Shown: one piece after another, positions 7,137-53,551 of the stretch | Layout of the letters: each line of letters starts with the position of its first letter | How positions within the stretch are numbered: position 1 is the first letter of the stretch | Assembly (NCBI GenBank): GCA_905221615.1 | Contig: CAJNDT010000958.1 | Span: 45,303-109,302 of the forward strand | Source of the DNA: Symbiodinium sp. CCMP2592 | Lineage: Eukaryota; Sar; Dinophyceae; Suessiales; Symbiodiniaceae | Length of the DNA: 64,000 nucleotides | Direction: 5' to 3' | Made by a program: the position numbers and the translations under genes | The notes under the pieces: model-generated | What the model was told of the DNA's origin: nothing | Database searches by the model: none | Seen by the model: only the letters and a program-made list of their open reading frames with translations

Positions 7137-7447
7137 GTGTGTGTGTGTGTGTGGATATATTATTTTGTATATCATATATGATATATAACATGAGAAATAT
7201 ATTATTTAATATATAACATTTAAGGTACAATATGAAATACATGATATGTAGTTATTATTGTATAAATGAAGGATAATACGCAATATCTAATATTTAGTAT
7301 TTGATATCTGGTATAAAACATAACATATACAACACATAATACGTAATAGAATATATATAGCATATGTGATAAATATATACATTTTTGAAAATTGTAAAAT
7401 GAATCCTTTGAAATTGTACATATATATATAGTATATGCAATAAACAT
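7137..7447. repeat. GT microsatellite and AT-rich block
   Basis: A (GT)n run at about 7137-7152 is followed by roughly 290 bp of strongly AT-rich sequence rich in TATA and ATAT words. It matches in character the AT-rich DNA at 26811-26979. E1 therefore appears to have inserted into one continuous AT-rich block, now split. Confidence 0.85.
7443..7447. repeat. E1 target-site duplication, left copy
   Basis: AACAT lies immediately outside the left LTR and is repeated immediately outside the right LTR at 26811-26815. Five-base duplications are normal for Ty1/copia integrases. Confidence 0.85.
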
Positions 7448-7878
7448 TGCGTGGGGGATTGATCTCGACTAGGTTGCTGCTCTCCCCACCAGAGCTGTAA
7501 TGAATATAGGTGTGGCTGGCTTGCACTCTCCACAGACTGGACCCTGTCTCTCTTACGCTTCCACACGCGCAATCCTATGCAGGCAGAACCGGCGGCCGTT
7601 CCTTTTGCACTCACTGCCGGCGGCGGTTCGTCTGTGCAACGGGATAGCTCTGATTGCTCAGGATAGAAGACACTTATAGCACTTAGCTATGGGCATTGAC
7701 TTGAGCCAAACGTTGCGTGGGCGGTCACATAGAAAGGTAAAGATGAGGGACGCGTAGCGTGCCCCCTTAGAGTCGAGGGACGCGTAGCGTGCCCCCTTCT
7801 CTTGCACTTTACACGGTCTTGCTCACAGCTCTTATAGTGACACCTTAGAACTTGACAAGGCATCGCAGTCCGTTCGCA
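7448..7878 (-). repeat. E1 3' LTR
   Basis: 431 bp, beginning TGCGTGGGGG and ending GTTCGCA on the plus strand. It is identical to 26380-26810 apart from about six transitions. It contains a direct repeat of a 24-bp unit at 7745-7768 and 7775-7798 (key word GACGCGTAGCGTG). On the element's sense strand it also contains TTTGGCTCAAG, discussed separately. Confidence 0.93.
7700..7710 (-). other. Spliced-leader-like 11-mer in the E1 LTR
   Basis: The minus strand reads TTTGGCTCAAG, identical to the last 11 bases of the conserved dinoflagellate spliced leader. The same string is at 26632-26642 in the other E1 LTR. It may be a relic of a trans-spliced transcript that was reverse transcribed, or a mimic of the leader. 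The match is short, so the interpretation is inference. Confidence 0.5.
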
Positions 7879-7884
7879 CCCCCC
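7879..7884 (-). promoter_or_regulatory. E1 polypurine tract
   Basis: On the sense strand six G residues abut the 5' end of the 3' LTR. This is the position expected of the polypurine primer for plus-strand DNA synthesis. The tract is short but exactly placed. Confidence 0.7.
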
Positions 7885-8142
7885 ATGAGTTGCGTCTCCG
7901 ACGCTGCTCACCCGGAAGATGGCACGATAGGACAACAGAAAATGTTCCGCCGCAACGTTGGCATTGAAAATCAGAGCTTTGCATCCCAATTAGAAACGTT
8001 GTGACACTCATCTACGTCAGTAACGATCCCCTGAAATGGCAAACGAATCAGGCGTCACCGAAGAAAGAAGCATTCGCGATGGCATTCCATGGGCGAAGCT
8101 CAGAGGTCACGAACTGATAGGCGAGGAAGACCAAGCGTTGAT

Positions 8143-11100
8143 TCATCTCCATCTTCGCGTGGTCGCAGGATCGCGGTCCCAGGGCCGGAGGTTTTCCTCT
8201 GGATACTGTTCCCTTTGCTTTCCTTTGTCCTTGCCTTTGTTTCGGCCTTTGCCGGCGGTGTAGTCATAGTAGGTGTTGGCGTTCCAGCCTCCATGCTGTT
8301 CACCTCCGGTTCTCTCACGCCCTTTTGAAGGTCCCTTGGCCGAAGAAGCGCTTGCACGTTCCTCCGTAGTGACAGGCGTGTCCAGGATGGAAGTACCACC
8401 TGGAGGGAGATAGTCAGCGGCCGAAATGTGGTGTAGGGCTTCAGTACGCTTGGTCGTCGGGTTTTGCTGTCTCTCAGCCTTGGATCTGTTCAATCTGTCC
8501 ATGAAATGCGCAGGCATTTGCACATTGTGGTCCACCAGCAATCCGATGGTCTGGACTGAATGATCGGAATGAGTCAGCAGGATACCGACGGGGTCGATGT
8601 ACAAGAAGTCCACCGGTCCAGTTGGCGTTGGTCGTAGCACTGAGAATTGTTGGTGTCCCGTCACCATCGGAATCACCTCGCACAGGACGTTCAGGCAACA
8701 AAAATGCATAGCCTTCACATCTTCATCCCTGTTGCTCTTCAAGTACGTAGTAGGGTTGAAGTTGTCCCTGCCAATTCCCATCATGTTGGCTCCCCGTGTA
8801 ATCAACGAAAGCATCTGATTCGTCCGGAAGCGCTTCAAAGTGTAAGTCCCGTTGGGATCATACTGCTTGAAGTTCTCAGGTTCCTTGGCAAAGCGAATGA
8901 TCTCCTCATCAGTCACATCCCTGCTCACACCAGTCTCTCTGTCCACTACAGCCAATGATCCCCATTTTCCAAGCACATCATAACGTTGGCCAAGTGCGAA
9001 ATTCTCCTTCATCTGAAACAACGGCATAGTAGCCCACTTCGCGAAGCCTGACCAAGCCTTGTAGATGGTCCTGCATACCACGAAAGCCATATACGAAAGA
9101 GCGACCATGTTGGCGTCGATGCAATGGGCATTTCGCTTCCCTGAGTAGTAGGATGGCTGCATGGCGGTACGTGCGAGTTGTAGCTCAGGATCGATGTTCA
9201 AAGACTGGCCGGTGATGAAGACGGGACGGCGTTCCTGTGCAACTGCATCTGGTACTGCGTCATCAAAGTCCTCTCCTGGCTCTATGTCCATTTCTTCATC
9301 AGGTTCCTGTTCTGGATCGTCCTCCGCGATGACAGATGGTTCTGGGATTTCCTCAGGTTCCGCAACGGTCTCTACCTCCATGGCTTCCTGCTCCTCTTCG
9401 GGCGCCTCAGGCACTGCTGCTGCCGCGGCTTCCATTGTCTGAGCAATGAAGTCACTGGGGATCTCCGTAGGAGTCTCCCGTTGTGGAGAACCTTGGTAAT
9501 ATCCGCTAGAAACGAACTGTGACCAGCAAGACGTGCATCGGGAGAAGCATGCTGGAACGATGTTGTAGCATGCCGGGCACACCCTCATTCTCCTTCCATC
9601 CTCGTCTCTGCGTAGGTCTTCGGGTCGCCAATTCTTGATGACAAACTTGATCCCTTTGTCCATGTAGTGATGCCGAACCGTGTTCTCCCTGTGGGACTCC
9701 AGGACAGTCGTAAGGTCTCGAATGATCTGCTCCTTGCTGGTGTCGTGGGGTCCAGGAGGCATTTCGCAAAGCAATTCCATGATCTTGCTCGGCGTTCGGT
9801 ATCTCTCGAACTCAGGGAGCAACGGTGATGCATTGTAGTCCAACACCAGCTCTTTCTCCAACCGTTCATCGTAGATCTTTTCCACCAGAGCGAAAGAGTG
9901 TGTATCTTGAGGATCCGGGACGCAAAACCATACCTCCTTGACGAACTGGAACGGTATCGTTCGGCCAACGATCATGATGCCGCTGTCTGTGATACGTCCA
10001 TCTTCTCGTGCAAGGTCCTGCGATGGGACATGAAGGACCGCCAGTGGCATGTGCTTGGCATCTCGTCCATGTACCCGCATCTTGGTCGTCGCATTCCGGT
10101 GATCGAACGGTGCAAACACCCCCCAATAGCTGTGGAGTCTGCCGCCTTGGTTGCCTCGAAATTGGCGCCTATGGTCGAAGTCCCCGTCGGGGTCCTCCGA
10201 ACCAGGCATGATGCCTTGCGTGACAATGGAATCCAAGTTGCGGCATGCCGTAGCGTGGAACGCGCCTCCAAGACGTTGCAAGAGGGTCATAGATGGAGAT
10301 ATTGCGAACCTGTTCTTGTCCAACTGAAGCAAATTGTTCTGGGGATCTGAGTGCGCAGAGTGACCACTTGTAGCCCGAACTGCCCATGGCTTCACCCAGC
10401 CGTTGCAAACGTTCAGGTACCTCTGGCTGTGCCGGCAACGATCATTGTTCTGGATCTCCGTGATCTGGTCAGGAATCGATACCAACATGTTCGAACCTGC
10501 GGATCCAAGAGTTTCCACGCCGGGGTCCTTCACTCTCACTCCCAGGAACTGCAACCGAATCTTGGCCTTGTGGCGTTTCGTGGCTGCGAGCATGTTCCCT
10601 TGGAACAATAGCTGAAGTCTTTCATTGTACACTCTCTTCCTCTGTTGCTCATCGGACCATGAGACCGCTTCGGTGATGCGTCTGCTTTCATGGGTCCATA
10701 GTTGCTCATGCCTCACCAAGTCTTCGATCAGCACCCACCCTCCTTCATCACATCGAATGACGCTGCTGAACGCTACCTGGCACCTGTTGTCAAGCCATTC
10801 CGAGCCTGGGCGCCTGGCGATTCTGTGACGCAGGTCAGATTGGATGCATGATAGCGCCCAATCCGCGTTTATTCTGCGCTGACGGGTGATGTTGCGAAGG
10901 ACAACTTCGTTCACGATGTCCCATCGATTGTTGATGAAGCTTGCACCCTTGGTTGGGATCAGGTCGAGAATTCCGCACCGGATTGGCCTTCCGCCGCCGA
11001 TGCATTCATAGCCTGCATTGGTGTATCCCTGAGTGGTATCGTCAAAAGCAAAGCTAGGACGGTCTCCTCGTTGAGGTAGGCGTCGGTCGCGATGGTCCGA

Positions 11101-11181
11101 AAGCTGCTCAATGAGGTCCACCACCCGCTGGCTATTCTCTGGTCCTGATTCCTGCAGTGGTAAGATTGTGTTTGTTCTCAT
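8143..11181 (-). CDS. KptA/Tpt1-like RNA 2'-phosphotransferase domain protein carried by E1
   Basis: 1012 aa, starting at an ATG that overlaps the end of the upstream Cys-rich ORF by 50 bp in another frame. Residues about 85-420 follow the KptA/Tpt1 plan in order: LRH at about 117-119, GGWVLIEDL at about 147-155, VRATSGHS at about 268-275 (family RAxQGHS), then FHATACRNLDSIVTQGI at about 308-324 (family HGT motif). GRLHS follows near 347-351, in the place of the family R-x-H-V-H. Tpt1 removes splice-junction 2'-phosphate from RNA using NAD+, and related enzymes ADP-ribosylate RNA ends. The Arg-His pair and the later Arg residues that the mechanism uses are present. After this come a Cys4 ribbon (CPAC...CTSC, about 530-560), a long acidic segment, an unrecognised 250-aa domain and a Gly/Lys-rich tail. 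It is the last gene before the 3' LTR. Confidence 0.75.
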   Translation of the reverse strand: MRTNTILPLQESGPENSQRVVDLIEQLSDHRDRRLPQRGDRPSFAFDDTTQGYTNAGYECIGGGRPIRCGILDLIPTKGASFINNRWDIVNEVVLRNITRQRRINADWALSCIQSDLRHRIARRPGSEWLDNRCQVAFSSVIRCDEGGWVLIEDLVRHEQLWTHESRRITEAVSWSDEQQRKRVYNERLQLLFQGNMLAATKRHKAKIRLQFLGVRVKDPGVETLGSAGSNMLVSIPDQITEIQNNDRCRHSQRYLNVCNGWVKPWAVRATSGHSAHSDPQNNLLQLDKNRFAISPSMTLLQRLGGAFHATACRNLDSIVTQGIMPGSEDPDGDFDHRRQFRGNQGGRLHSYWGVFAPFDHRNATTKMRVHGRDAKHMPLAVLHVPSQDLAREDGRITDSGIMIVGRTIPFQFVKEVWFCVPDPQDTHSFALVEKIYDERLEKELVLDYNASPLLPEFERYRTPSKIMELLCEMPPGPHDTSKEQIIRDLTTVLESHRENTVRHHYMDKGIKFVIKNWRPEDLRRDEDGRRMRVCPACYNIVPACFSRCTSCWSQFVSSGYYQGSPQRETPTEIPSDFIAQTMEAAAAAVPEAPEEEQEAMEVETVAEPEEIPEPSVIAEDDPEQEPDEEMDIEPGEDFDDAVPDAVAQERRPVFITGQSLNIDPELQLARTAMQPSYYSGKRNAHCIDANMVALSYMAFVVCRTIYKAWSGFAKWATMPLFQMKENFALGQRYDVLGKWGSLAVVDRETGVSRDVTDEEIIRFAKEPENFKQYDPNGTYTLKRFRTNQMLSLITRGANMMGIGRDNFNPTTYLKSNRDEDVKAMHFCCLNVLCEVIPMVTGHQQFSVLRPTPTGPVDFLYIDPVGILLTHSDHSVQTIGLLVDHNVQMPAHFMDRLNRSKAERQQNPTTKRTEALHHISAADYLPPGGTSILDTPVTTEERASASSAKGPSKGRERTGGEQHGGWNANTYYDYTAGKGRNKGKDKGKQREQYPEENLRPWDRDPATTRRWR

Positions 11182-12961
11182 AACGGATCAAGACCACATC
11201 ACCCCGTACGGCTTCGCCTCCGCGTCGCGGTCGGGCTTTGGCCTTGGGTCGTCGGTCCGAGGATGCAACACTCACATGGTCTGTGGTGTCAACGTCCATT
11301 GGCTCAGCCTCTTGTGGAGGTACTCGACGTGGATATCGAAGAAGGCTTTCCTTGATGATCTGGATGCCTCGAAGTACCAGATCCCGGGTTGCAGAATTTT
11401 CCGTGCAATTGGACAGAGTGTGTAGATCACTGCCACAAGCGATACAGAACGTGAGGCGGTCACTTCCGACCGACATTTCGCCTTGAGCGAGCACTCCCAC
11501 ATAGTCCTGAAGCTGTGCGACAAATCCTTCACGAATCGCCTGCCTGGGATCAGGGCCTTCTGCACCTTGTTCTTCTTCGGGTTGCGCATCCACATCTACA
11601 TCCTGTGCAGGTATTGGTGGAGCAACGGAGAACCCTGGATCGTCCGTGACGTTGTCAGCGGCCTGTGTCTCGTCGGTTCTCGCAATCTCTACGGGGTAGA
11701 TATCACCATCGACGATCACTGTGAAATCAATCACGAGGTCAGCGGACATGTTGTTGACGATCTCAGCGACTGCTTCATTCTTCTTGGGCGGTGTCCTTTT
11801 GCGTGGGGAGTCAACCGTGATCAGCTCGATAGCTTCGGCCGACGCGTAGCGGAAGAATGATCTTTCGATTCCCCTCACGCACGCATTTGCTCCCTCAAGG
11901 CCACCCCAATTCGGAAAATGACTTGGGTGTCTCATTGCAATTGTAAGAAGCCCGAGCGCCAGCTCCACCGTGTCACCCAGGAGTTCCTCCTTGGGCAAGG
12001 CTGACCCTCTGTAGCATTCTTGGCGCTCTTCCGGAGTCAAAAGCATTCTCATGAAACCAGCATAAGCGCAGTTCCCGGCATCGTAGTAGCAGATGTAGCA
12101 TGTCTTGCCTTCGGAGTCGTATCCTCTGTCCCATGCCAACTGTTTGGCCTTTCCCCATGCCGCGTACTCGATGGCCTGACTGGCTGTGATTCGGAGACCA
12201 CCGTAGTGAGAAACCGTCTTGCCAATGTCTTCGTAGACCACTTCCGCACAAGCTTTGAGGAACTCCTTGATGTCCATGCGAGGGTCCACAAATTGAAGCC
12301 TCAGGTCATAAAGGTGCTTTGCGCAAGCCAAGGTGTACTTCTGGGACGCGACCAAGTCATTGAAGGAGCCGATTTGATGCTGCATCTTCAAGGCTGAAGT
12401 ATGCGCGCACCCAACGCAGTGTCCAGGATACCCGTTTCCGGTCGGCTTGAAGAAGGCCTGTGCGTAGCACTCAGCCAACTTCATTGCGTCACATCCAGAG
12501 CAATAGAACGTTCTCCCTTTGACATAACCGGTGTTCGGGGTCGCATAGGTGTCGATCCGGAACCAGTAGTGCCTGTTGTCGTAGTAGGCTTCGGGAACGG
12601 TCATGGCGATGTCAAAATCCTGCCAGGTGACTGTGGACGATTCAGCGACCGTGTCACCCTGGGCACCCGACCTGATCTGTTGCTGCTGTTCTCCCGTAAA
12701 CCATGTCTGCGAAATCCTGGTGGACGTCTTGACTTCACTCTTGTCCTCCCAAATCTCGACAAGCGACGGGTGAGCGACTGAGTCGGCGCGGACAGTTTCG
12801 TCCCATGAGCGAACTTTCGATGCCTCAACAAAGCACGTGGATACCATCTTCTCGCAGAACAGCTGCTTCTCGTAGATAGCGAAGCCCAATTTGAACCTGC
12901 ACCCGATTGTCCGGTGCTGGCACCTTTTCGGCTGACAGTGTATGCACGCCTGACGACGCAT
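11132..12961 (-). CDS. Cys-rich accessory ORF of E1, function unknown
   Basis: 609 aa from an ATG with an in-frame TGA two codons upstream, so the start is well defined unless it is a splice acceptor. Cys/His clusters are visible near residues 5-15 (CIHCQPKRCQH), about 150-185 (CSGCD...HCVGCAH), about 290 (CYICYYDAGNC) and about 510 (CIACGSDLHTLSNC), suggesting several zinc-binding folds. The middle is alpha-helical in character. A Pro/Glu-rich acidic linker precedes the last cluster, and the C-terminus is basic (KAKARPRRGG). I do not recognise the family. Its end overlaps the KptA-like ORF by 50 bp, which suggests coupled translation or frameshifting between them. Nucleic-acid binding is a guess from the zinc clusters and basic tail. 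Confidence 0.6.
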   Translation of the reverse strand: MRRQACIHCQPKRCQHRTIGCRFKLGFAIYEKQLFCEKMVSTCFVEASKVRSWDETVRADSVAHPSLVEIWEDKSEVKTSTRISQTWFTGEQQQQIRSGAQGDTVAESSTVTWQDFDIAMTVPEAYYDNRHYWFRIDTYATPNTGYVKGRTFYCSGCDAMKLAECYAQAFFKPTGNGYPGHCVGCAHTSALKMQHQIGSFNDLVASQKYTLACAKHLYDLRLQFVDPRMDIKEFLKACAEVVYEDIGKTVSHYGGLRITASQAIEYAAWGKAKQLAWDRGYDSEGKTCYICYYDAGNCAYAGFMRMLLTPEERQECYRGSALPKEELLGDTVELALGLLTIAMRHPSHFPNWGGLEGANACVRGIERSFFRYASAEAIELITVDSPRKRTPPKKNEAVAEIVNNMSADLVIDFTVIVDGDIYPVEIARTDETQAADNVTDDPGFSVAPPIPAQDVDVDAQPEEEQGAEGPDPRQAIREGFVAQLQDYVGVLAQGEMSVGSDRLTFCIACGSDLHTLSNCTENSATRDLVLRGIQIIKESLLRYPRRVPPQEAEPMDVDTTDHVSVASSDRRPKAKARPRRGGEAVRGDVVLIRYENKHNLTTAGIRTRE

Positions 12962-13092
12962 GTTTCATCTGGCTGTACATTCTTGACCAAAACGAAGATC
13001 CATGAATCACCACGCATGCTCGGGCCCGCAACTCCAGTTCAATATACATTCCCAGCGCGTGGAAACCGTTGAACAGAGCATTGCCTCAAGGC

Positions 13093-13743
13093 ATGGGACA
13101 TCCGCTCGCCTTTGCGATGAACTCACTCCAGGCGTTCAGTGTCTGTCTCCACGTGCTTCACTCCTACGTGTCATGGGTCGATCCACAAACTGGACTCCCG
13201 CATTACAGATGGTCTAACGACGTGCTCCCTGATTCCGACTACACCACGTATACTTTCCTCAAGCACCATGTGGATGCAGTATGCGCAGCTCAGGACAAGA
13301 ACGGTTTCCAATTGCCGGATGCGTTCCGTGGCTACACCTGGAATCAATGCGGAGTTGAATCTGGGTACGTGGTCGACTGCTCTACCAAACGCGCCACATT
13401 GGGCATATGGGAAGCGGAATTCCAACAGATGAGGGCACCAAATCCGCTTATGCAAGATGATGGCCTATTTCCGCCCAACCTTCAACGGCATCCTAGCTGG
13501 GTATACTCAACGGGGAGAGTTGCGATGCCTACGGCAAGCAACCTCGAACCGGAAGGAATCGTGCACCCTGAGCATGGAAGAACGCCGGAACAATCGCAAG
13601 GATCCGCTGCCGGACCTCGAGCCACCCCTAGCCACGGACCAAAGAGGGCAAGGACGGACGAGGCAACGGCATCGGCGTCGTCATCTTCTGCGGCACCTCC
13701 TCCACAACAACACCGATTCAGCATTACGTCAGAAGACTGGTGA
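13093..13743 (+). CDS. Antisense ORF inside E1, function unknown
   Basis: 216 aa from the ATG at 13093; the frame is open from 13069. It runs opposite to every other E1 gene. Composition looks like a real protein: a globular N-terminal 150 aa rich in aromatic residues (GYTWNQCGV, WVDPQTGLPHYRW), then a low-complexity Pro/Ser/Ala tail with a KRAR nuclear-localisation-like motif. The minus strand offers only two short open frames here. Large plant LTR elements are known to carry additional antisense ORFs, so the arrangement has precedent. No homology is recognised. Confidence 0.4.
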   Translation: MGHPLAFAMNSLQAFSVCLHVLHSYVSWVDPQTGLPHYRWSNDVLPDSDYTTYTFLKHHVDAVCAAQDKNGFQLPDAFRGYTWNQCGVESGYVVDCSTKRATLGIWEAEFQQMRAPNPLMQDDGLFPPNLQRHPSWVYSTGRVAMPTASNLEPEGIVHPEHGRTPEQSQGSAAGPRATPSHGPKRARTDEATASASSSSAAPPPQQHRFSITSEDW

Positions 13744-14115
13744 CCTATTTGGCAAGGATCCGTTCCGTCTCTCAAAATGATGACAAGGGTCTCAACCTGA
13801 AGGTCTACGTGAAGCTGAGTACAAAGGTGTGGTTACGAATGTATTCACGGCTGTACCATGCATTGGCATTGGTATCATGCGTGCATCTTCCTTCTCCTCC
13901 AATGCTTACCTCGGCAGTGATGATCGAGGCAGACAGCGATCTTGTCGACAACGATAAGATTCCGGAAGAAGCAAGGATCAACACCATGAACACGCTGAAC
14001 GGATTTCGCAATAGTATGGTTGCAAGGACCAGGGGATCAACGCACACGGTAAGAGAGAACCTCGGCATGCATGGATGGAGCGAGGTCTACGTTGTGAGCC
14101 CGTCGATCACCGCAG
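13744..14115. other. Gap between antisense ORFs
   Basis: A plus-strand frame at 13740-14189 is open but shows no recognisable domain. The sequence may be an intron between two antisense exons, because the frame of the 13093-13743 ORF is also the frame of the one starting at 14116. No splice pair could be fixed with confidence. Confidence 0.3.
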
Positions 14116-14553
14116 GTGCCAACTACAACTTCCAAGTCACAAAAAGGGTCGTTGGAATCTGTGAATGCGACATTGGATGGCTTGACTGAAGAGCAGCTTG
14201 CAACCGTCACATTGCATTACCATCTGTCTCTCCAGGCGATCCTCATCGAGAACATGTCCTTTCCGATGAGTGAGGTTGGAGACGGAGCAGCAATTCGCAC
14301 TGACTTGCAGCGACAGCTCAAGATCACGAACGTTGACCCTATCATTGCGGCAGGGAAGCGTACCACGCGCCAATTGTCAACATCAATCACGACTTACGGT
14401 TCGTTGGAGCAGCTAGCAATTACCTTCAGCACGAAGCTTCTTGATTGGCGTAGCGCCATCGTTGCTCGCTGCGCATTCCTGGTTGTAGGTCCGAAGTCCA
14501 TACCCAGTGTGCTTTGCTGGTCAGGTGCTCTGCCTGACATGGGCAACTTGTGA
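14116..14553 (+). CDS. Possible second antisense exon or ORF in E1
   Basis: 145 codons in the same frame as the antisense ORF that ends at 13743. The segment around LTEEQLATVTLHYHLSLQ and MSEVGDGAAIRTDLQRQL looks coding. The last 50 residues overlap the minus-strand ORF at 14394-14696 and may not be real. It could be the 3' exon of the antisense gene or an independent fragment. Confidence 0.3.
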   Translation: MPTTTSKSQKGSLESVNATLDGLTEEQLATVTLHYHLSLQAILIENMSFPMSEVGDGAAIRTDLQRQLKITNVDPIIAAGKRTTRQLSTSITTYGSLEQLAITFSTKLLDWRSAIVARCAFLVVGPKSIPSVLCWSGALPDMGNL

Positions 14554-14696
14554 TAGTAGTCCTGATTCACCGTATACCATTGTTGAATTCTCGTGTCTGT
14601 CACGGTCTGGTAGGGCGTCTCCACGGAGTTGATGAGAACGGCAAGATTGTAGGACACTTCGAAGGCCAGCTCGTAGGCATTGTAGCTTTCAGCCAT
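14394..14696 (-). CDS. Short E1 ORF or first exon, function unknown
   Basis: 100 aa from a good ATG, rich in Tyr, Gln and Asn in its first half (YNAYELAFEVSYNLAVL), ending at TAA. Four bases before the stop, GTAAGT at 14397-14392 is a strong 5' splice donor, so this may be a first exon that continues elsewhere. It lies 113 bp downstream of the methyltransferase-like block. No family recognised. Confidence 0.35.
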   Translation of the reverse strand: MAESYNAYELAFEVSYNLAVLINSVETPYQTVTDTRIQQWYTVNQDYYHKLPMSGRAPDQQSTLGMDFGPTTRNAQRATMALRQSRSFVLKVIASCSNEP

Positions 14697-14808
14697 GGCT
14701 CGGGGTTCGGTCCCTCCTCCGTAGGAGAGAAGTCCCTACACCCTACTCGACTTCACGGTTCCGGGTTCTCCGTAAGAGGCACCCTTCCCCGATCCGTCCG
14801 GTCAGACC

Positions 14809-16373
14809 TTAGTTGTTCCTTAGTTGGGGCTGTCTAATAGCCCCTTCATCAGCGTCTACACACTGATGTTGCTGCCATGCAATGTGCTCAGATTCATGTG
14901 CATCGTGACTGACACCGACATGAGCTCGAACAAGGCTGCGAACATTCCTCGCAATCGACCGCCATGAAACATCAATGCGCTGCAACAAACTGCTCTTCGA
15001 TTCATGGTCCAAGCAATCATCCAGTCTCACCATCAAACGATCCGCTTCAGGCATGTTAGAGAACATGATCCTGCGTCCACCACCATCGCCACCAGCACCA
15101 ACATGGTCATCAATCTTAACCTTCGTCACTTTGCCACTTGAAACAAGAGCATGCAACTCTGGCCAAGACCAACATGAACATGAAGAAGGCATGTCAAGCG
15201 AAAAATAGACGTCGGAAAATTCCGCACACTTCTTCAGCAGGCGTTTGAGAGATTTCAAGATACTTCTGAAAACCTTGTACTTCCCACCGGAACGTTTCTC
15301 ACCCCCACGCAAGCCCCTTCACTACTTCCAGGACCAGCACCTGATCGCAAAAGCGATGCCACGAATAGCACAGGTGTGCGCAGGTCATTCCGGCACGCAT
15401 CCTTCATTGCACCGATAAGGCTGTCCTCATCGGCCTTAGAGCCAATCAGCTCCTTGCAAGTTATGCGAGCGCATCCCTTAGTGGGCTTAGGCACGGCGTA
15501 GCCATTGCCCAAGCCACATAGGTCAACGATCATGCGGTCAGGCTTTCGTCCACCAGCCTTCGACGGCATGGCTACCAATCTCCCATCGCCCGTTGCCTGA
15601 AATTTCAAGGCTTTAAGCAATCTCCTGGAGATTTGGCTAGTCAACTCGCATTTATCAGATCGATCCTTAGCGTCCGAATCGGTCATGTGCAAATGTTTGG
15701 ACGAGCACACGTCAGACGACTTAGGATGCAACGCGACGTTTGCGGCAATGTACTCCCATTCATCCTTGCAGTAGCCGAGCTCGACGGCGGTTCCGGGAGA
15801 TACAGGATCCCGAAAGGTATAACGTTGCCCGTGAGTGCATCCTTGGATCTTGATGCTCTTCCACATGGCATCTTCCTGAAGTCCCTTGTACTGCTTGGTT
15901 TCCTGAACTGGTACTCGAGGAGGTACTTCGATGATGATTTGGAACCCCCATGATGCCGCTCTGCGCGCAATTCTTTGGACGACCTCCCCCCATGGGTAGT
16001 CTGTCCGCAATTTGGCCCTTTCAGGGTTGTCAGCGATTTTCCGACTCAGCCACGAATTCTTGCCTAACACCCCTGCACCAATGAAGATCACGGAGTTAGG
16101 GTTGATTTTCCTTGCTTCCACCACATCGAAGAGGTAGGCGCACATGGCGTCGTCAACTTCTCGCCCCATACTCAGAACATTTACTTGCAGCCCAGGGTCA
16201 TAGTGAGAATCGGGAGCATGCTGTGCAATGCAATCCTTGCCTGGAGCATACTCATTCCACCAGTTCTCCTCATCGACCCCTACCAATGTCCACACCGTCA
16301 CTGCTTTTGGAGCATCTTTGATAGTGATACGGTACTTCCACCGGCTGTAAGGATTCTTGTAGGTATGGACCAA
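14809..16373 (-). pseudogene. Tandem methyltransferase-like domains of E1, frameshifted
   Basis: Two overlapping minus-strand frames (16373-15255 and 15312-14809) together match the C-terminal domain of the E2 polyprotein twice. First module: IIEVPPR and SSKHLHM align with VIEWPQR and VLIHCMD of E2. Second module: MIVDLCGLG aligns with IVMVEFCTSG, VLFVASL with VVVWAST, and SLDMPSSCSCW with VIEWPQRCAYW. The alternation of beta-strand motifs with a D/E-x-C-x-x-G glycine loop resembles a SAM-dependent methyltransferase Rossmann fold. The E2 catalytic-like PCTGGSPW loop is degraded to SGAGP in the second E1 module, next to the frameshift. The first frame overlaps the end of the RT-RNase H ORF by 76 bp, so it was probably once fused to pol. 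The enzyme assignment is tentative. Confidence 0.45.
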
Positions 16374-18580
16374 CCTCCATCGTGGTCGAGGAATTGGATC
16401 ACCAGGCCCTCCTTGGGTTTGTTTTCGGCGAAATTGACCACGTGAGGCACAATTGCTCCATCATATCCTTGATATTCCCTTTTCTGTTCAGCCGCATCAT
16501 GCCATACATCCTCGTACACTGACGACCATTGGTCATAACCGAATTGAGAGGCTTGACTTTTGGACTGGCCGTTGAAACAAAGAGGCAATGTAAAGCCCTG
16601 GTACCCCCCATGGATGGCACGCGCCAGTGTGACAACCACCGCTCGCCATTTGGCGGGCAGGGCGCGCACATAAGACTGGCCCAAAGGCGGTTCAGGAGGA
16701 GGCAAAAACGGCGGCGCAAGGACGTCCGCAATAGCGGCTGGGCGCAAATGCCCCCGTACCGGATGGTACTGAAACACAGCACGCTCCACATAGCGGTCGA
16801 ACTTGCCCGGTTGATCAAGGATAGCAGCACGGTCCTCCATTTGGTGCCACTGCCCTTCACGAAGAATCCAAGTCGACCGAAGGTAACGACCAGGCGGCAA
16901 CGCGGAAGGCGGCCCCCGCAACATGCGCGGGAACTTGACAACGAGGATGGGGTCCACACTGTCATGTTCTTGCAAGCCTTCCTTACTCGACAATCCAGCC
17001 CGATACAACACCTGAGGGAGGATCGGCGTCTGCGTGTAAGGAAAACAAGGCACCTCGCTCTTGAACGAGTAATGCTGTTGCCCCTTCTCATCCGTACTTT
17101 GGGAATGAGTAGGGCGCATCAGATCCATAATCTCTTGGGAGCCAAGGAGAGCCGGCGGAAAAATGTTGATGAGCTGACACACATGTGTCCAGGACACAGA
17201 ATCCTTGAACGACTTGGTGTGTATATCCGCGGACATCTTGGCAGTGACCTCATAGGCAAGAGAAACGTAACCTTCCTGAAAGATAGAATGCATCCAACCA
17301 ATGCAGATGCCGTGGGTACGTTCCAAGTGACGCATAGTCGGATTCTTGCCCGTGCGAATAACCCCGATCATGGTCTGGTTGTCGTCGTAAAAGACGAAGT
17401 TGGGGTCTTGCCCCCCAAGCTGCTGCCACAACGTGATAGCAGGCAATCCAAGACGTGACATGGCAAAGTCGGCCGCGACAATCTCGGCCTCAGGTGTGGA
17501 ATGACTCAAGCACCCCTGCCTTTTGCTAAGTCCCGCCAAGGGAAATCTTGTGTGAGAACCTTGAATGTGCAAATGAGCACCGGAGGTAGATTTCAAACTT
17601 TCTCCACAACCTGCATAGTCCGCATCTGCAAACAGCCCGATGGACGAGTCCTCCAAGGAGTTCCCGACCCATCCAATCATCATGTGATGTTTGGACTGGT
17701 GCACATAGGCCATGAGATGATGAAGAAGAGCATCCTCCTTCTTGGTCCATTTCGTGATCTTGCGTGCGAGATTGTTGATACTGCGCAGAAGATCAAAGCG
17801 GCAAATGCGCGCGGCATAAAGCAATTTCATGAGAATGCTTGCTGCCTGCGGAGCAAGTGCGCCGCGATTAGCCTCGTTGATCTCCTCTTCCTCTGGCGCC
17901 TTGGGAATAGGTGGAGGCGGAACAAGCCGACCGTCCTTATCAACAGGCATGGTGTGTCCACACCACGTGCATCGATGGCTTTTACCTGACTGTGCCGGAG
18001 CGCGAGCTGGATGATTCTTAGTCTCCTCAGCCGGACTCGGCGATGGTACCGTCTTGAATTTTGTCGGATCGAACCCAGTCACGTCGCAGTACTTCTTGAC
18101 TGTCATGTCCAGGTACGTGTCCATGTCGTAGGTAACGGTCTGCACCTTCGTTTTGTCATGCAACGTTGCCTCGCCCTTGGAGATGCGACAACCCAGATAC
18201 AAACCTAGTGGCGTTTCTTCTTCCAATCGGAGTTCTTGGCGCAGCATGTCCCAACCCTTGGGTAGATTCTCTTTGGGCCCTGCCCTCTTGAGATCATCCA
18301 CGTAGATGACAAGTAAGAGCTTCATCTGCGGGTGGAAATACAATGATGGCCATTCGTCGCCAATCGGCTTGAATCCTACTTTCTGTACCGCGGTATGGCA
18401 ATGTTGTTCCCACATGGTTCCTGCGTCAGGATGTCCGTACAGAGCTTTGATCAGGCGGCACACAGGCCTACGGAATTTATGCCGTTTCGCAGATGGATGC
18501 CATGCTTCATCAGGCAGTTCAACCCAACATGGAGTTCCCGATAATCTCGCCTGAATGTATGCTTGAATAGCATCCGCCAT
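16298..18580 (-). CDS. E1 pol: reverse transcriptase C-terminal part and RNase H
   Basis: 760 codons. It opens in the RT fingers/palm (CRLIKALYGHPDAG), with the catalytic IYVDD at 18309-18295. RNase H follows: FADADYAGC with STSGAHLHI, then STPEAEIVAA, then YDDNQTMIGV, the Asp/Glu/Asp pattern of copia RNase H. The SADIHTKSF segment marks the normal copia end. About 270 further residues of unknown function follow (for example LGQSYVRALPAKWRAV). The frame differs by one base from the upstream RT part at 19448-18519, with a 62-bp overlap, so a frameshift splits RT near 18520-18580. Confidence 0.85.
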   Translation of the reverse strand: MADAIQAYIQARLSGTPCWVELPDEAWHPSAKRHKFRRPVCRLIKALYGHPDAGTMWEQHCHTAVQKVGFKPIGDEWPSLYFHPQMKLLLVIYVDDLKRAGPKENLPKGWDMLRQELRLEEETPLGLYLGCRISKGEATLHDKTKVQTVTYDMDTYLDMTVKKYCDVTGFDPTKFKTVPSPSPAEETKNHPARAPAQSGKSHRCTWCGHTMPVDKDGRLVPPPPIPKAPEEEEINEANRGALAPQAASILMKLLYAARICRFDLLRSINNLARKITKWTKKEDALLHHLMAYVHQSKHHMMIGWVGNSLEDSSIGLFADADYAGCGESLKSTSGAHLHIQGSHTRFPLAGLSKRQGCLSHSTPEAEIVAADFAMSRLGLPAITLWQQLGGQDPNFVFYDDNQTMIGVIRTGKNPTMRHLERTHGICIGWMHSIFQEGYVSLAYEVTAKMSADIHTKSFKDSVSWTHVCQLINIFPPALLGSQEIMDLMRPTHSQSTDEKGQQHYSFKSEVPCFPYTQTPILPQVLYRAGLSSKEGLQEHDSVDPILVVKFPRMLRGPPSALPPGRYLRSTWILREGQWHQMEDRAAILDQPGKFDRYVERAVFQYHPVRGHLRPAAIADVLAPPFLPPPEPPLGQSYVRALPAKWRAVVVTLARAIHGGYQGFTLPLCFNGQSKSQASQFGYDQWSSVYEDVWHDAAEQKREYQGYDGAIVPHVVNFAENKPKEGLVIQFLDHDGGWSIPTRILTAGGSTVSLSKMLQKQ

Positions 18581-19448
18581 CTGGACATCGTTGCCAGGAA
18601 GGCATCCGTAATAGCCCTTTGAACTTCCTGGCAGGATCGTCCTCTTTGAGCTGATAGTTCTTCTCGTATATCAGTCCATGCACTCGCGCCATATGTACTT
18701 TCTCACCTTTCTTCTTTGCCTGAGCGACGACGTCGTCATATTCGCGCGTAGTTGAGAAATCAAACACCTCTTGGTCCCACAATCCCTTCCATTCTTTCAT
18801 GAAAGCTTCCATGGCCTTGGGGTTGTTGACCATCTCCTTGCGTGTGACGGGTCGAGTGACCATGGCATTGAAGCATGATCCTCCTGCATGATTCTTTTCC
18901 CGATGTACGTTTCTGTGAGAAGTCGTACACGGCATAGACGGAATCCAGTTGTCATCCATGACCATGTGTGCCGGAACAGCCGGCACGACGTCCGCCAAGA
19001 ATTGTTCTTGTGTGTATTGATCCACATAGGATTGTGCCCAGTACCATCCATCGTCGTCATCAATGGGCACGTTGAGTTGCAGATCGATTTCTTCACATGG
19101 AACAATCTTGGGAAAGATCATGTTGTCCAAAATCTTGGTGACTATCTTCTTTCCTATCACAGCCTTCTTCCGGTCTTTCTTGGCAACTCGAGCTTTGTCT
19201 CGCTTTTCTTTCTTGTATGCTGCCTTCTTCTCCGCTTCGCTCATTTTCTTCCATGCTTCCGGAGAATAGGAATGGATAGGTCGCCGTGTAGGAAGGGTTC
19301 GTCGACCGTCGCTTCGGATCTTATATGGAACTCCCCTTTTATCGATCTTGCAGGCTTCACCATCGTCAGTGAGGTATACAATGCCGTCCCCTTTCTTCCC
19401 CGTACTCCAATGTTCAATCTTCTCAGGAGCCAACTTCTTTTCTTTCAA
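18519..19448 (-). CDS. E1 pol: linker and N-terminal reverse transcriptase
   Basis: 309 codons continuing the gag-protease-integrase frame after the poly(T) tract: 19448 and 24680 are in the same phase. The first 100 residues are Lys-rich (KKMSEAEKKAAYKKEKRDK). Copia RT begins near NPKAMEAFMKEWKGLWDQ (family motif: ...AMxxEmxaLxxngtw). The frame stops just after RT motif residues, where the next frame takes over. It works with the downstream RT-RNase H part to copy element RNA in a virus-like particle. Confidence 0.8.
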   Translation of the reverse strand: MKEKKLAPEKIEHWSTGKKGDGIVYLTDDGEACKIDKRGVPYKIRSDGRRTLPTRRPIHSYSPEAWKKMSEAEKKAAYKKEKRDKARVAKKDRKKAVIGKKIVTKILDNMIFPKIVPCEEIDLQLNVPIDDDDGWYWAQSYVDQYTQEQFLADVVPAVPAHMVMDDNWIPSMPCTTSHRNVHREKNHAGGSCFNAMVTRPVTRKEMVNNPKAMEAFMKEWKGLWDQEVFDFSTTREYDDVVAQAKKKGEKVHMARVHGLIYEKNYQLKEDDPARKFKGLLRMPSWQRCPDGGCYSSIHSGEIIGNSMLG

Positions 19449-19636
19449 GATCTTGATGATCTCTCCAGGTTCTTCGATGTCTCCTTCGGGGATGAGTCTA
19501 CCGGTTGGACCGACTTCGCGGGGCGATCGTCGATCTTTCCCAGTGACCTTTGGTTCAGAAGGAGGCGGTGCTGCACGTAGACCTAGTTCTTCGTCTAGTT
19601 CTTCGAGTCTTTTGTCTCCTATAGCATCAATGAGAT

Positions 19637-19641
19637 TTTTT

Positions 19642-19731
<90 letters not shown>

Positions 19732-19754
19732 CTTTTTTTTCTCTTTTTTTTTTT

Positions 19755-19840
<86 letters not shown>

Positions 19841-19845
19841 CTTTT

Positions 19846-19918
<73 letters not shown>

Positions 19919-19934
19919 GTCTTTTTTTTTTTTT

Positions 19935-20028
<94 letters not shown>

Positions 20029-20045
20029 TTTTTTTTTTTTATTTT

Positions 20046-20134
<89 letters not shown>

Positions 20135-20140
20135 TTTTTT

Positions 20141-20192
<52 letters not shown>

Positions 20193-20236
20193 GTCCTTCT
20201 TTTTTTTGTTTTTTGCTTTTTTTTTTTTTCATTTTT

Positions 20237-20276
<40 letters not shown>

Positions 20277-20358
20277 CTTTTTTTTTTTCTTTTTTTTTTT
20301 GTTTTTTCCTTTCTTTTTTTCATTTCGTTTTTTTTTTTGTTTTTTTTTCTTTTTTTTA
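19637..20358 (-). repeat. ~720-bp near-pure poly(T) tract within E1 pol
   Basis: On the plus strand almost every base is T, with scattered single C, A or G. On the sense strand it reads poly(A) and codes for lysine with rare Asn, Arg or Glu. It sits between integrase and RT, where the flanking protein is already Lys-rich (NIKKKKKKQKKKRNEKKK). It may be an expanded AAA/AAG codon repeat or an assembly or polymerase-slippage artefact. The nominal length places a TGA in frame at 20229-20231. Confidence 0.95.
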
Positions 20359-23300
20359 ATGTTGATGCTTGACTTGAAGACTTCGCCGGACGGCTCCGTC
20401 TCTATGTCAGCTGGATCTATGTCCTGTAAGTCGGGATCTTCTCCGGGATCCGGTGGAGGAAGAAGACCATCTTGATCATCATCATCCCCGTTACCACCAT
20501 TTCCTCCAGGCGGACCGTCATCCCCGTCATCGACGTCTTTTATCTCCTTGCCAGCGAGGTCAACGTTGTCCCTGAGTCCTTCAATGGTTGAGTTCATCCT
20601 CTCGTACTCGGCTTTCAGGGGAAACGTTATCTCCTCTGGGAAGTAGATAACTTCTGTCTCGTACGGTCTCATCAACTTTCTGGGAACAGATGCGTCCATC
20701 GACAAGTTCGCATTGGCAAATTCCTTCATGTCCCACACGCGATACTTCTTGGACCATCCGTGACCAGCAGTGATGATGTATCCGGCGAAAATGCCTGGGA
20801 TCCCCTTTGGATCGAACTTGTTGCCATATGTCTTCGGCCTTGTATCCGTAGGCTTGAAGAAGACTTTGGCCCCAAAGGGTATGGCTTTTCCCTCGAAGTC
20901 CTTTCCAGTCATACGTTTCCATGCTGAATCACCGTCGCCCTCCACATCTTCGATGTTGAGGTTCTGCATCACGCAGTTCAGCGCAAACGACCAGTATTGG
21001 GCGGGTAATCCGGCATGTAGCATGGATGCTGCGACCGTGTTGATCACTTCTTGATTTGATCGTTCAGCGAGTGAGTTGTTACTGGGTTTCCCTGGAAGGG
21101 AATGATCTATCACGATCTTCAACTGCGCCATAGCTGAATCGAACTCTGGTGCTTCATCACTATACGCCATATGAATCTTTCGTCTTCCCATTAGGCGTCT
21201 GATGGCCATGACGACCTCGTCAGTGCTCCTTGAAGCCGTGGGAATCGCTGCGATCATTTTGGTGGCGATGTCTCTGATGACTAGAACTTCACGTGCTCCA
21301 TCGTCGAGTCCGATACCTGCTTCGGCGGCCTTGCGCATATCGAGGAAGTCGAATGTCACAAGATCTCCCCAATGTTTGATCACACGTTGAAACGCACCTC
21401 GTTGTGTCCGCAAGTGCTTCATCTTCGCGCGTATGCACGATTCGCAATATGGGTTGCGGTAGCGATGAGTACACAGATGTGCCAACGTCTTAGCTTCGGC
21501 TTTCAGTGTTCCGACTCTGGCCTTGCGGCTCGGCGCACCGTCGCCTTCCACGTCAATGATCACCTCATCGCCACCATCCAATGGAATTTCACCCACTCCT
21601 TTTCCTTCGTCGTCGTCCGGAGGTCGTCCGGCCTCGGACTCTGGCACTTCTTCTATAGGAGGTTCTTGGGGTTCAGGATCAGGAGGCCGTTCATGATCGT
21701 CACCTTCTTCTTCTGCTTCAACCTCGCTCGGTGCAGCTTCGGCGGCAGCTGCGACGCTGACGTCAACGTCACCTGCGGTTAGCACGCTCTTGAAGATTTC
21801 GGTGATCGCTTTGGCCTCCGGATCATCATGAACAAGTGACTTGGAACTCCCGGCGCGAATGTACGGGATGTCACCGTTCACGAACAGAGATATCCTCTTG
21901 CCCTGCGGGTTGATCATGAATGGTTCCCTTCCGGGTGGCCACACAAACCCGTAGTTGAAGTTCATGCATCTCTTGCCTATGGAAAGCACCGATGGTGTGT
22001 CGTCCAACACGTAAGCGTTGATCGGTTCCTCGAACGACTCAGTCTGGAAGTTCGACACAAGATCGGTATCGGTGATTCCATTTGCTGTCTGAAATGATAT
22101 GGGCTCTGGAGTCACGAGTGTCTCAAGACTGTGCTTCTCGATCTTCTTCTGAGATATGAGGTCATGGCCACACCCAGTGTCCATGAGAAACTTGATCTTC
22201 TTCTTGAGGATGACTGGTTGAACCATGCATTTGCATACACCTTGATTGATGATCCGCTTGCTGTGCGCGGCATCGAGTTCACGTTCAACGATGGAATCCT
22301 CACCGTCGTAGAAGGAGACTTCTTCCACCCGAGACGTTCCTGGGATTCGCACGAATGAAACTCGATCTCCACATTGATCATCATCGTCGTCAACCATGTC
22401 TCTCATAATCTGTGCCCTCAATCTCGCTTTGTGCTTGGCGAATTCCAAATTCACTGCGCGATCCTCATCGTTGACAAGCGCTTCCATGTCGACGTACTTC
22501 ACCTTCCGCTCTTTGTCCTTCTTCGATCTTCTAGGACACGAAGAAATGAACTTCACGTCATCGGCGAATGTCACATTACGCTTGATCCCTTTTCGGGTCG
22601 ACGTAGTCGGTCCCGAGGATTCGGCGTCTGTTGAACAATCCGAATCAGCGTCGCTGTCAACGGATGGGCAATCTGACTCCTCCTCATCCTGTCTTGAAGA
22701 TCGCTTCCATATCGCCGGAGCTGATGGATTCCACCTTCGGCACAATCTGATGGCGGGTGCCGCAGGGAGCGCCTTGGCCTTGGCATTCGGCTTCGCTGGA
22801 GCTGCCTTCGCTTCGGACTTGGCTTTAGCCTTTGCCTTTGGTTCCGGAGCTGGGGTAGCCGCTGCCTCATGCTTGAAAGGACAATTCTCTCTTGAGCACG
22901 AGCCTGTGTTCTTGAACGAGTAGCATATCCTGTTTCCTACTCCTCCAGATGGACTTGGAGTTCTCGTCCTCGGCGTGAAGGGTCGCTCTGGAGTCTTCTT
23001 CGAGTGACTGAATGGACACTTATCCCCATTTCGACACCCTGCATCTGTGAAATGGAACTTGCAGCGGATTTGCTTCTTGCTTTTGTCACCTCTGTTGTCC
23101 GCTGACTCACTCCTCGTCTTCTTCTTGGGCTTTGGCTTGGTCTTCGCATGACTCTTCGCTATGCTTTGAGGTAGTACAGGTGTTGCTTTATCCGGCTTGG
23201 TCGGCGAAGCCTTGACCTTTGCGGATGGAGCTGCGTTAGGCGTTGGTTTCTCAGGTACCTTGGCCGGTGCAGCAAGCAAATCCTTGACCTCAAGCATCTG

Positions 23301-24680
23301 GCGCAAGCCAATTTGGGTCTGAGTGAGATTTGATTGTTCTCGTCTCCGCATGATGGTACGGTCAATGATCTTCATCAAATTGTCGTACGATCGGTCTTCA
23401 TGATTGTAGGGCAAGTGTTCGTAGTGCATGCCCAACTCCATTTTCATTGCGGGCGAGTCCTTGATCTTGCTGTACAAGCAATCACGGAGAGCTGTTTTGG
23501 ATGGTATGTCTTCTGGCCTCATCCGTCCCAGAACTTCCAACCACGTCTGCTTGAACGTATGAAGCTTGTTGTCGCCTTGGTACTGAAGCTTCACCAGATA
23601 CTCGAGAGTGATGATCATGTCGAGACGATCATGCGTTCGAAAGCTTTCATACATCATCGCAATGATTTGTCGTCCTTTGATGATCTTCCCTTCGGGCCTG
23701 CTGATGTAGTCGTTGGCCTTCCGGTTCACCTCCAGGTACAGGTCAGCAGATTTGTCACCACCAGCACGTAGCATTGCGACCATTGCGATCCCCAATTTGA
23801 CGTCTACGCTCTTAAACTTCTTGTGTCCTGGATCGTTCAGTGCTTCGACATCAGGGAATGGGTTGAATGCTGGTGCCAGCCATAACATCCAGTCCTCATG
23901 ATTTGGATCGGCTGATGCTCCTAAGACATTCGCCGTGCATACGGATCGCCAGTTGTTGAGGTGAGTGAGAGTAGGCCATGGAGGTACGGTCACTTTGTCG
24001 GCCTCCCTCCTGGAAATTCTCAATTCCGTGACTTCAGGATCTGCGTCTCCATCAGGATCACGCGCATGAGATCCAGGATCCGATTCAGGTTTGCCTCCAC
24101 CGCTTCTCTTCTTGTCATCATCATCATCAGGCGGGTCTGGAGGATCATACCCCGTGCCGGTTCCTTCATCACGCTCTCCATCTTCATTCTCGTCGCCAGC
24201 TTCGTCACCGTCATCGTCTCCATTATCCTCCTGAATCGTTTCAGCGAATAATCTCCACTCATCACGATCAGCTCTGAGACGTTGCTCGGCTTTCTGGGCC
24301 TTGAGTACTTCGCTTCGCAGATCGGCAATCTTCTCCTCGTACCGTTCCGCGACCTCTTTCTCGATCTGACGTCTCCTTGCTTCATGAATGGAATCGGCAT
24401 AGGCAATAGGGGGACCGATGAGGTCGTTGCCCTTCGTAGATGCGGTGATACCGTCGACACCAACAGGTCTTGAGGAGCTGGCAGATGCTGTGGACTTCGA
24501 TCCCAACATCCCGCGATCCTCCAAGAGTTCGCGTAGCTGTCGATCACGCACGGCTGCCGCATCACTTTTCCCATGAAATCCGCTTGGTATGCCAAACAAA
24601 GTGGCTGCACTAGGCGTGGAACGCGCAAGTGCTGGGCTGCTAATACCTGGCACGTAGTGCTCGGGCATTGCATCCGCCAC
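20229..24680 (-). CDS. E1 gag C-terminus, protease and integrase
   Basis: 1483 codons in the gag frame, after an in-frame TGA at 24716-24714. In order: a coiled-coil/gag core; two CCCH zinc fingers at about 23060-22990 (CKFHFTDAGCRNGDKCPFSH) and about 22935-22870 (CYSFKNTGSCSRENCPFKH); an aspartic protease with FLMDTG at about 22190-22173; a pre-integrase H2C2 finger (HLCTHR...CESCIRAK); and integrase with DLVTFDFLD, YSDEAPEFDSA and NSLAERSNQEV supplying the D,D,E residues (about 21380-21040). CCCH fingers in place of the usual CCHC knuckle are unusual for copia gag. It ends inside the poly-lysine tract. Confidence 0.88.
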
Positions 24681-24713
24681 GATTGGCGTTGAATTGCGGC
24701 CAGTGAAGAAGTT

Positions 24714-25316: not shown

Positions 25317-25361
25317 GTTCTCTCTGGCATGTTCATGAAGTTCATGAGTCAGACGCTCATA

Positions 25362-26315: not shown

Positions 26316-26368
26316 TGTGGTCGTAGTAGATCAAGTAGTCGTTGCTGTAGACAGGCAGAGCCGCGTAC

Positions 26369-26379
26369 GGCTGATAACC
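26369..26379 (-). promoter_or_regulatory. E1 candidate primer-binding site
   Basis: GGTTATCAGCC directly follows the 3' end of the 5' LTR on the sense strand. It resembles, with a shift, the TGGTATCAGAGC primer site for initiator methionine tRNA used by many copia elements, but lacks the initial TGG. The location is right; the tRNA assignment is weak. Confidence 0.35.
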
Positions 26380-26810
26380 TGCGTGGGGGATTGATCTCGA
26401 CTAGGTTGCTGCTCTCCCCACCAGAGCTGTAATGAATGTAGGTGTGGCTGGCTTACACTCTCCACAGACTGGACCCTGTCTCTCTCACACTTCCACACGT
26501 GCAATCCTATGCAGGCAGAACCGGCGGCCGTTCCTTTTGCACTCACTGCCGGCGGCGGTTCGTTTGTGCAACGGGATAGCTCTGATTGCTCAGGATAGAA
26601 GACACTTATAGCACTTAGCTATGGGCATTGACTTGAGCCAAACGTTGCGTGGGCGGTCACATAGAAAGGTAAAGATGAGGGACGCGTAGCGTGCCCCCTT
26701 AGAGTCGAGGGACGCGTAGCGTGCCCCCTTCTCTTGCACTTTACACGGTCTTGCTCACAGCTCTTATAGTGACACCTTAGAACTTGACAAGGCATCGCAG
26801 TCCGTTCGCA
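26380..26810 (-). repeat. E1 5' LTR
   Basis: 431 bp, matching 7448-7878 except for about six transitions, two of them at CpG in one copy. On the sense strand it runs TGCGAACGG...CCCCCACGCA. It carries the same 24-bp internal tandem repeat (about 26685-26738) and the spliced-leader-like 11-mer at 26642-26632. It should hold the element promoter. Confidence 0.93.
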
Positions 26811-26979
26811 AACATCCTATTATATACAAAATATACAATATGAATAATATAACATATTTCTACGAACTTTTTATACAAAGAATATGTATATATATATATA
26901 TCATAAATATAACATACTAAAATCTGTATATATGTTATATATGTGATATAAAGACATATATATATATATATATATGGCA
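26811..26979. repeat. AT-rich block, with the right E1 target duplication at its start
   Basis: AACAT at 26811-26815 is the right target-site duplication of E1. The rest is AT-rich DNA with TATATA runs, the right half of the block that E1 interrupted. No gene seen. Confidence 0.85.
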
Positions 26980-47994: not shown

Positions 47995-48162
47995 CGTTAA
48001 AACCCAAACGCGCCTTGAGGCACACTTCTAGGTTTAGTAAAAGGAGGTGCAAGCCGACTGACTGACTACGTCACGCAAGGCTACAGCAGTGAAAGCTAAC
48101 AGCACTTTTACACCTTTCGTTGCAACCAACTGTTCACCACGCGCTTGTCACGCAGTGCAAGT

Positions 48163-48173
48163 CTTGAGCCAAA
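48163..48173 (-). other. Spliced-leader-like 11-mer in the E2 LTR
   Basis: The minus strand reads TTTGGCTCAAG, the same string as in the unrelated E1 LTR and the 3' end of the dinoflagellate spliced leader. The other E2 LTR keeps 10 of the bases (62790-62781). Interpretation as a trans-splicing relic or mimic is inference. Confidence 0.5.
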
Positions 48174-50981: not shown

Positions 50982-51007
50982 CTTGGAGCCAAAAGCTGCG
51001 AGAAGGC

Positions 51008-53544: not shown

Positions 53545-53551
53545 GGCCGAA

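Follow-up and report, generated by a model that had tools for sequence, protein, structure and literature searches.

A putative RNA repair enzyme in a dinoflagellate retrotransposon raises the question of what a selfish element might gain from carrying one. We addressed this question in a 64,000-nucleotide stretch of DNA from Symbiodinium sp. CCMP2592 (assembly GCA_905221615.1, contig CAJNDT010000958.1, positions 45,303 to 109,302), hereafter the window. The element, E1, is a Ty1/copia-type long terminal repeat (LTR) retrotransposon of 19.4 kb on the minus strand at 7443-26815, recognised by its LTR pair, target-site duplication, and match to RVT_2. An original prediction, made from the letters of the window, had proposed an LTR retrotransposon carrying the open reading frame (ORF) at 8143-11181, whose product would resemble the RNA 2′-phosphotransferase Tpt1/KptA; the retrotransposon is borne out by the LTRs, the AACAT duplication, and RVT_2. 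Our preferred answer, to which we assign a probability of roughly 0.4, is that E1 took up a divergent Tpt1/KptA domain and keeps the protein because it would be helpful to its own replication, clearing RNA phosphates that hinder reverse transcription.

Identification of the KptA/Tpt1 domain

We performed a Pfam search of the 1,012-residue ORF and, as had been anticipated of a profile search, the KptA family PF01885 matched above its cut-off, if only just (26.7 bits against 26, E value 6.6 × 10−6). A profile of six Tpt1 sequences gave 23.3 bits for the domain and 19.4 bits for the whole ORF; among 1,000 shuffled versions of the domain, the highest score was 6.9 bits. The probability given by hhalign was 69%. 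The NCBIfam equivalog for RNA 2′-phosphotransferase, NF002014, scored 11.6 bits against a cut-off of 239. A single-sequence phmmer query matched no Tpt1 among PDB sequences up to an E value of 1, and a PHROGs search returned nothing of use. No relative was found when viral contigs were scanned with the ORF, E. coli KptA, and the query A1, or when genome contigs were scanned with A1.

All five motifs that had been read in the order typical of Tpt1/KptA are present in the ORF: LRH (117-119), GGWVLIEDL, VRATSGHS (268-275), FHAT...IVTQGI (from 308), and GRLHS (347-351). The expected Arg-His-Arg-Arg site likewise aligns with Tpt1, as R118, H119, R269, and R369, with R369 placed by the eukaryotic-type alignment and lying one column off in the bacterial alignment. 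A long insertion interrupts the domain at about residues 190-262. Our first MAFFT alignment had put KRH (203-205) in the place of the active-site LRH; we rejected this assignment, as H204 varies among copies and LRH 117-119 is constant. The zinc ribbon suggested for the same ORF is less clear: two CxxC pairs (535, 549) fit, but no Pfam zinc family was called there.

Structure prediction was carried out on the lobe that would bind nicotinamide adenine dinucleotide (NAD), residues 255-432. The model had a mean predicted local distance difference test score (pLDDT) of 65.9, with best blocks at 79-93, and its 17 best Foldseek matches in the PDB were Tpt1/KptA, consistent with the predicted NAD lobe of ADP-ribosyltransferase (ART) type. 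This fold match is partly circular, because the alignment that drove the model consisted of KptAs. A winged-helix RNA lobe is a tentative assignment from sequence alignment only; a single-sequence AlphaFold model (pLDDT 29.6) was useless. Sequence comparison supports the ORF domain as a divergent Tpt1/KptA homologue.

Copies of the ORF and its place in E1

To find further copies, we searched the genome (1.098 Gb, 5,383 contigs) with the ORF and scored 45 of 1,917 candidates, the window included. All 45 matched from residue 1, 3, or 7 to residue 1012 at 98-100% identity with no internal stop. Because 15 of the 45 have an open frame of 2,509 residues, the ORF at 8143-11181 is a C-terminal fragment of a longer frame; the last ORF of E1 does carry the KptA motifs, as originally predicted, but it is not complete. 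In one long-frame copy, the frame spans the 609-residue ORF as well as the KptA ORF, and compared with this copy, the window copy is inverted at about 13078-14441, lacks some stretches, and is broken near 11163. The 2,509-residue frame of this long-frame copy matched PF01885 at 25.3 bits, just below the cut-off, as its only Pfam match to an E value of 0.5.

The KptA domain belongs to E1, because all 8 sampled copies have the 3′ LTR at one constant offset after the ORF, and 6 of the 8 have pol at the expected upstream offset (other sequence is found there in 2). It is very improbable that the domain is a nested gene or an assembly artefact, that is, a separate insertion in one E1 copy or no KptA at all. 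Nested insertions do occur in this genome, where, at C1724, another copia element harbours a KptA-bearing long interspersed nuclear element (LINE), but the scored copies, the constant LTR offset, and the Pfam and fold matches contradict such an origin here, and the first two rule out a one-off insertion.

Purifying selection on the domain

We compared two sets of E1 copies. The first set, 20 copies taken from the list of best protein matches and so biased to conserved protein, had no stops and no gaps and retained all five motifs. Together with the window (21 sequences), it held 37 synonymous and 17 non-synonymous derived states, with a ratio of non-synonymous to synonymous changes per site (pN/pS) of 0.12 for singletons and 0.28 for shared changes. 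The second set, 20 young copies, was picked by matches to 264 bp of non-coding sequence adjacent to the LTR, for which 40 of 901 candidates were scored, skipping copies already used. The domain was present in 19 of these; L069 lacked it and was dropped. Fourteen of the 19 were free of frameshift indels, 5 had them, and 1 had a stop. This set yielded 82 synonymous and 54 non-synonymous changes and 1 stop (pN/pS 0.27, p value 7 × 10−14, where p values here treat changes as independent and ignore shared ancestry).

Across both sets and the window (40 sequences), the pN/pS of the domain was 0.23. For comparison, pN/pS was 0.13 for the pol region of the window and 6 copies (7 sequences), with the pol frame holding over 1,431 of 1,461 bases. 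The core from VRA to HAT (residues 263-332) was the most constrained part, with 15 synonymous changes against 3 non-synonymous ones, whereas the insertion (181-262) was weakly constrained, with 20 and 19; the two differ with a Fisher p value of 0.04. Constraint was also weak before the domain, where the counts were 9 and 9. The tetrad and HxT motifs were present in all 20 first-set copies and invariant where covered in the 20 sequences of the second comparison. The E1 KptA domain is under purifying selection.

KptA domains in LINEs and a likely host gene

We also searched the genome with PF01885 and scored 150 of 1,550 candidates, which yielded 152 matches; ten regions were inspected. KptA domains were also found in at least three LINE-type families of the same genome. 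The first family (C890, C13, C1724, and C190) is made of units of about 10.1 kb (L024/L025, L009-L011, L018/L019, L028), the members other than C13 being assigned by DNA similarity. In the C13 unit, one ORF contains a BED finger, a weak APE endonuclease match (0.0026), RVT_1 (1.8 × 10−22), and the ubiquitin hydrolase domain UCH, and another, of 665 residues, contains KptA (1.4 × 10−39) and a sub-threshold PARP match. Three KptA LINE units stand in tandem at C890, about 10.1 kb apart. The KptA at C1724 was considered as part of the copia element there and was found to sit in the nested LINE-type unit instead.

In the second family (C2857, C4579, C634, and C4962; L014, L016/L017, L026, L020), a single 1,501-residue ORF of C2857 carries KptA and, downstream of it, the APE endonuclease, with RVT_1 in the next ORF. 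C4579 and C634 are about 90-97% similar across long matched stretches, and C4962, a more diverged copy (69-85%), encodes KptA and APE endonuclease in two different ORFs. The third family (C1360; L022/L023) has a KptA ORF of 757 residues followed by APE endonuclease and RVT_1 ORFs. A profile of four LINE KptA domains matched human TRPT1 at 7.7 × 10−44. In the two LINE families tested, the KptA pN/pS was 0.27 (11 sequences) and 0.29 (6 sequences); all were taken from lists of the best matches to a profile, and one tandem array supplied three of the six K665 sequences.

One Tpt1 exon with NAD-lobe motifs, at C4512 (L021:5721-6191, minus strand), lies outside any visible element and likely represents a host gene. 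In a tree of the NAD lobe, this exon branches beside the second (K1500) LINE family, inside the LINE KptAs (support 94-95), and E1, whose branch falls among the bacterial and viral sequences with a length of 2.96, is not placeable. The position of the likely host exon among the LINE KptAs suggests more than one uptake of KptA, in a tree of 105 columns only. We tentatively propose that retrotransposons of two orders, comprising one copia LTR family and three or more families of APE-endonuclease LINEs, may have acquired a Tpt1/KptA-type enzyme on several occasions and kept it working because a host barrier of RNA phosphates or ends would hamper any reverse-transcribing element. RNA repair would then be a general accessory function.

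Possible roles of the domain

A role in clearing RNA phosphates for reverse transcription would require the following steps. Host RNases would cut element RNA and host ligases would reseal it, leaving 2′-phosphates; these marks would hinder reverse transcription, and the domain, using NAD+ to act on RNA phosphates, would most likely remove them. The same benefit would explain KptA in the LINEs of this genome, because copia elements and LINEs both have an RNA intermediate and a reverse transcriptase; the shared role would not depend on a tRNA primer or LTRs. On the same ground, clearing such marks appears to be the most economical role. According to the available text of PMC10287922, the 2′-phosphate left by ligation “can interfere with reverse transcription,” and it was removed there by means of Tpt1 and NAD. 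The tetrad of Tpt1 touches the junction phosphates (PMC6333775, accessible text).

Several observations weigh against this role. The sequence of the domain has diverged strongly, with alterations in both the NGV motif and the SK dyad that precedes LRH, and with HAT in place of HGT. A profile of 59 bacterial and viral KptAs gave 13.2 bits for the domain and 9.0 bits for the whole ORF, with the best shuffle at 9.8 bits (the bacterial/viral comparisons, of 59 and 49 sequences, were hand-picked for spread from 103 loci). Selection could act on a non-catalytic use of the fold, and the divergence, the changed SK and NGV motifs, and the weak bacterial-profile score would all fit a dead enzyme kept as an RNA-binding or structural part of an accessory protein. 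We consider this improbable, and the invariant tetrad and HxT motifs and the strongly constrained core argue against it. The host genome has RtcB-like exons, and RtcB ligation leaves no 2′-phosphate. A search with PF09511 recovered no Trl1-type ligase, and it gave no match in control genomes either. In the accessible part of PMC6456296, Xrn1 fails at a 2′-phosphate and SuperScript primer extension was performed on tpt1-delta RNA; because no stop at the mark is described there, the block to reverse transcription may be partial.

Other activities of the fold are also conceivable. The domain might cap ends, adding ADP-ribose to 5′-monophosphate RNA or cDNA and so shielding it from host nucleases or sensors, which would serve LINEs and copia elements alike. 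In vitro, ADP-ribosylation of 5′-phosphate ends of RNA or DNA is described for human TRPT1 and for the Tpt1 of bacteria and archaea (PMC8131947, available text), yet we regard capping as an unlikely function here. A function directed at host RNA or protein is similarly doubtful, whether as an ADP-ribosyltransferase effector against host defence or as a tRNA-repair factor sustaining translation. Such a function would be in keeping with the UCH domain and sub-threshold PARP match in one LINE family and with the view that the ART domains of viruses, KptA included, serve in RNA repair or in conflicts (PMC9503650, accessible text), but the retained tetrad is the one that reads RNA junction phosphates in Tpt1.

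Organization of E1 and its surroundings

E1 has paired LTRs with TG...CA ends and a 5-bp duplication (Table 1). Its coding order on the minus strand opens with further gag-like ORFs before the ORF with CCCH fingers; in the latter, aspartic protease and integrase matches fall under their cut-offs. Upstream of the reverse transcriptase, the integrase signal is a weak rve_3 match (0.045), also below the cut-off. RVT_2 scored 32.6 bits in the pol ORF against a cut-off of 31.6, and the RNase H motif there was recognised by eye only. Downstream of the reverse transcriptase lies a long part without significant Pfam matches, ending in the KptA ORF. Such an arrangement, in which an accessory ORF separates pol from the 3′ LTR, is that of a large element of the Ty1/copia type. 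A lysine-coding microsatellite occupies 19485-20300, mid-way through the coding region and between the integrase and reverse-transcriptase ORFs, and a cluster of nested repeats, both direct and inverted and about 75-240 bp long, lies at 27136-27803, just past the 5′ LTR.

Table 1. Coordinates of the features of E1 within the window
Feature	Position	Strand	Basis
Target-site duplication AACAT, left	7443..7447	.	Sequence comparison
3′ LTR, 431 bp, TG...CA	7448..7878	-	98.6% to 26380-26810, 6 mismatches
ORF of 1,012 residues with KptA/Tpt1-like domain, C-terminal fragment of longer frame	8143..11181	-	
Putative zinc ribbon CPAC...CTSC, residues 535-552	9526..9579	-	Two CxxC pairs (535, 549)
KptA/Tpt1-like domain, about residues 105-428	9898..10869	-	Pfam PF01885 at 141-326, alignments, purifying selection
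Arg369 (KMRVH), fourth tetrad residue	10075..10077	-	Aligned to GMR of eukaryotic-type Tpt1
His309-Ala-Thr311, counterpart of NAD-binding HGT motif	10249..10257	-	Alignment
Arg269 (VRATSGHS), third tetrad residue	10375..10377	-	Alignment
Arg118-His119 (LRH), first two tetrad residues	10825..10830	-	Alignment
ORF of 609 residues, no Pfam match	11132..12961	-	Same frame as KptA ORF in one long-frame copy read
pol ORF, Ty1/copia-type reverse transcriptase	16298..18670	-	RVT_2, 8.2e-8
gag-pol ORF, CCCH zinc fingers in two stretches	20229..24713	-	Pfam
Sequence directly after 5′ LTR, primer-binding-site position, GGTTATCAGCC...	26362..26379	-	
5′ LTR	26380..26810	-	Pairs with 7448-7878
Target-site duplication AACAT, right	26811..26815	.	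Sequence comparison

The sequence that follows the 5′ LTR, GGTTATCAGCC, looks complementary to an anticodon-arm-like sequence. A pattern search for the perfect-stem form of such a primer found none at up to 1 mismatch, and the single match of a relaxed anticodon-arm pattern was no tRNA by ARAGORN. A half-tRNA primer for E1 was set aside, as neither of the two patterns gave a matching tRNA and LINEs would not need one. A second LTR-type element lies at 47991-63216, with 609-bp repeats (47991-48599 and 62609-63216, 97.4%); after its inner repeat end, the sequence resembles by eye a normal primer site for a tRNA 3′ end, unlike in E1.

Comparison with known systems

In a limited literature, mostly outside subscription papers and judged by titles and the starts of abstracts, we found no described retroelement with KptA. 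Tpt1 is widespread, and its substrate is unclear outside fungal tRNA splicing (PMC8131947, available text). A selfish element that keeps Tpt1 under selection hints at such substrates, and whether retrotransposition needs the enzyme would serve as a natural assay. The presence of KptA in unrelated mobile elements of one genome likewise hints at a common obstacle in element copying. If this is true, RNA-phosphate repair or ADP-ribosylation would join the functions acquired by retroelements, beside the DNA methyltransferases of dinoflagellate elements (PMC5890265, accessible text).

E1 is like Tpt1/KptA proteins (PF01885; human TRPT1, 7yw3; CthTpt1, 6e3a) in motif order, aligned tetrad, HxT motif, and ART-type NAD lobe. 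It differs from them in lying inside a 2,509-residue retroelement frame, in its long insertions, in the loss of SK and NGV, and in scoring far under the bacterial equivalog cut-off. Viral KptAs (jumbo phages, sawfly baculoviruses, Bodo saltans virus, and a few RNA viruses) also belong to genetic parasites, but the accessible passages describe none in a retroelement, and words beginning with “retrotranspos” or “retroelement” occur 0 times in that paper (PMC9503650). LTR elements of bdelloids (PMC5408684), plants (PMC7264820), and orchids, the last a Gypsy element with an m6A demethylase (PMC9289625), likewise have an extra ORF or domain beside gag-pol, though in their available descriptions the enzymes and hosts are others. 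The nearest precedent is the DNA methyltransferases of Symbiodinium LINE and DIRS elements: SymbioLINE-Dnmt and SymbioDIRS-Dnmt3 are also retroelements of dinoflagellates and have captured an enzyme on which purifying selection acts, but the enzyme is a DNA methyltransferase, the elements are LINE and DIRS, and Copia is said to lack it in the accessible text (PMC5890265). Enzyme capture by retrotransposons is already known; what is new here is the KptA enzyme and its presence in two orders of element.

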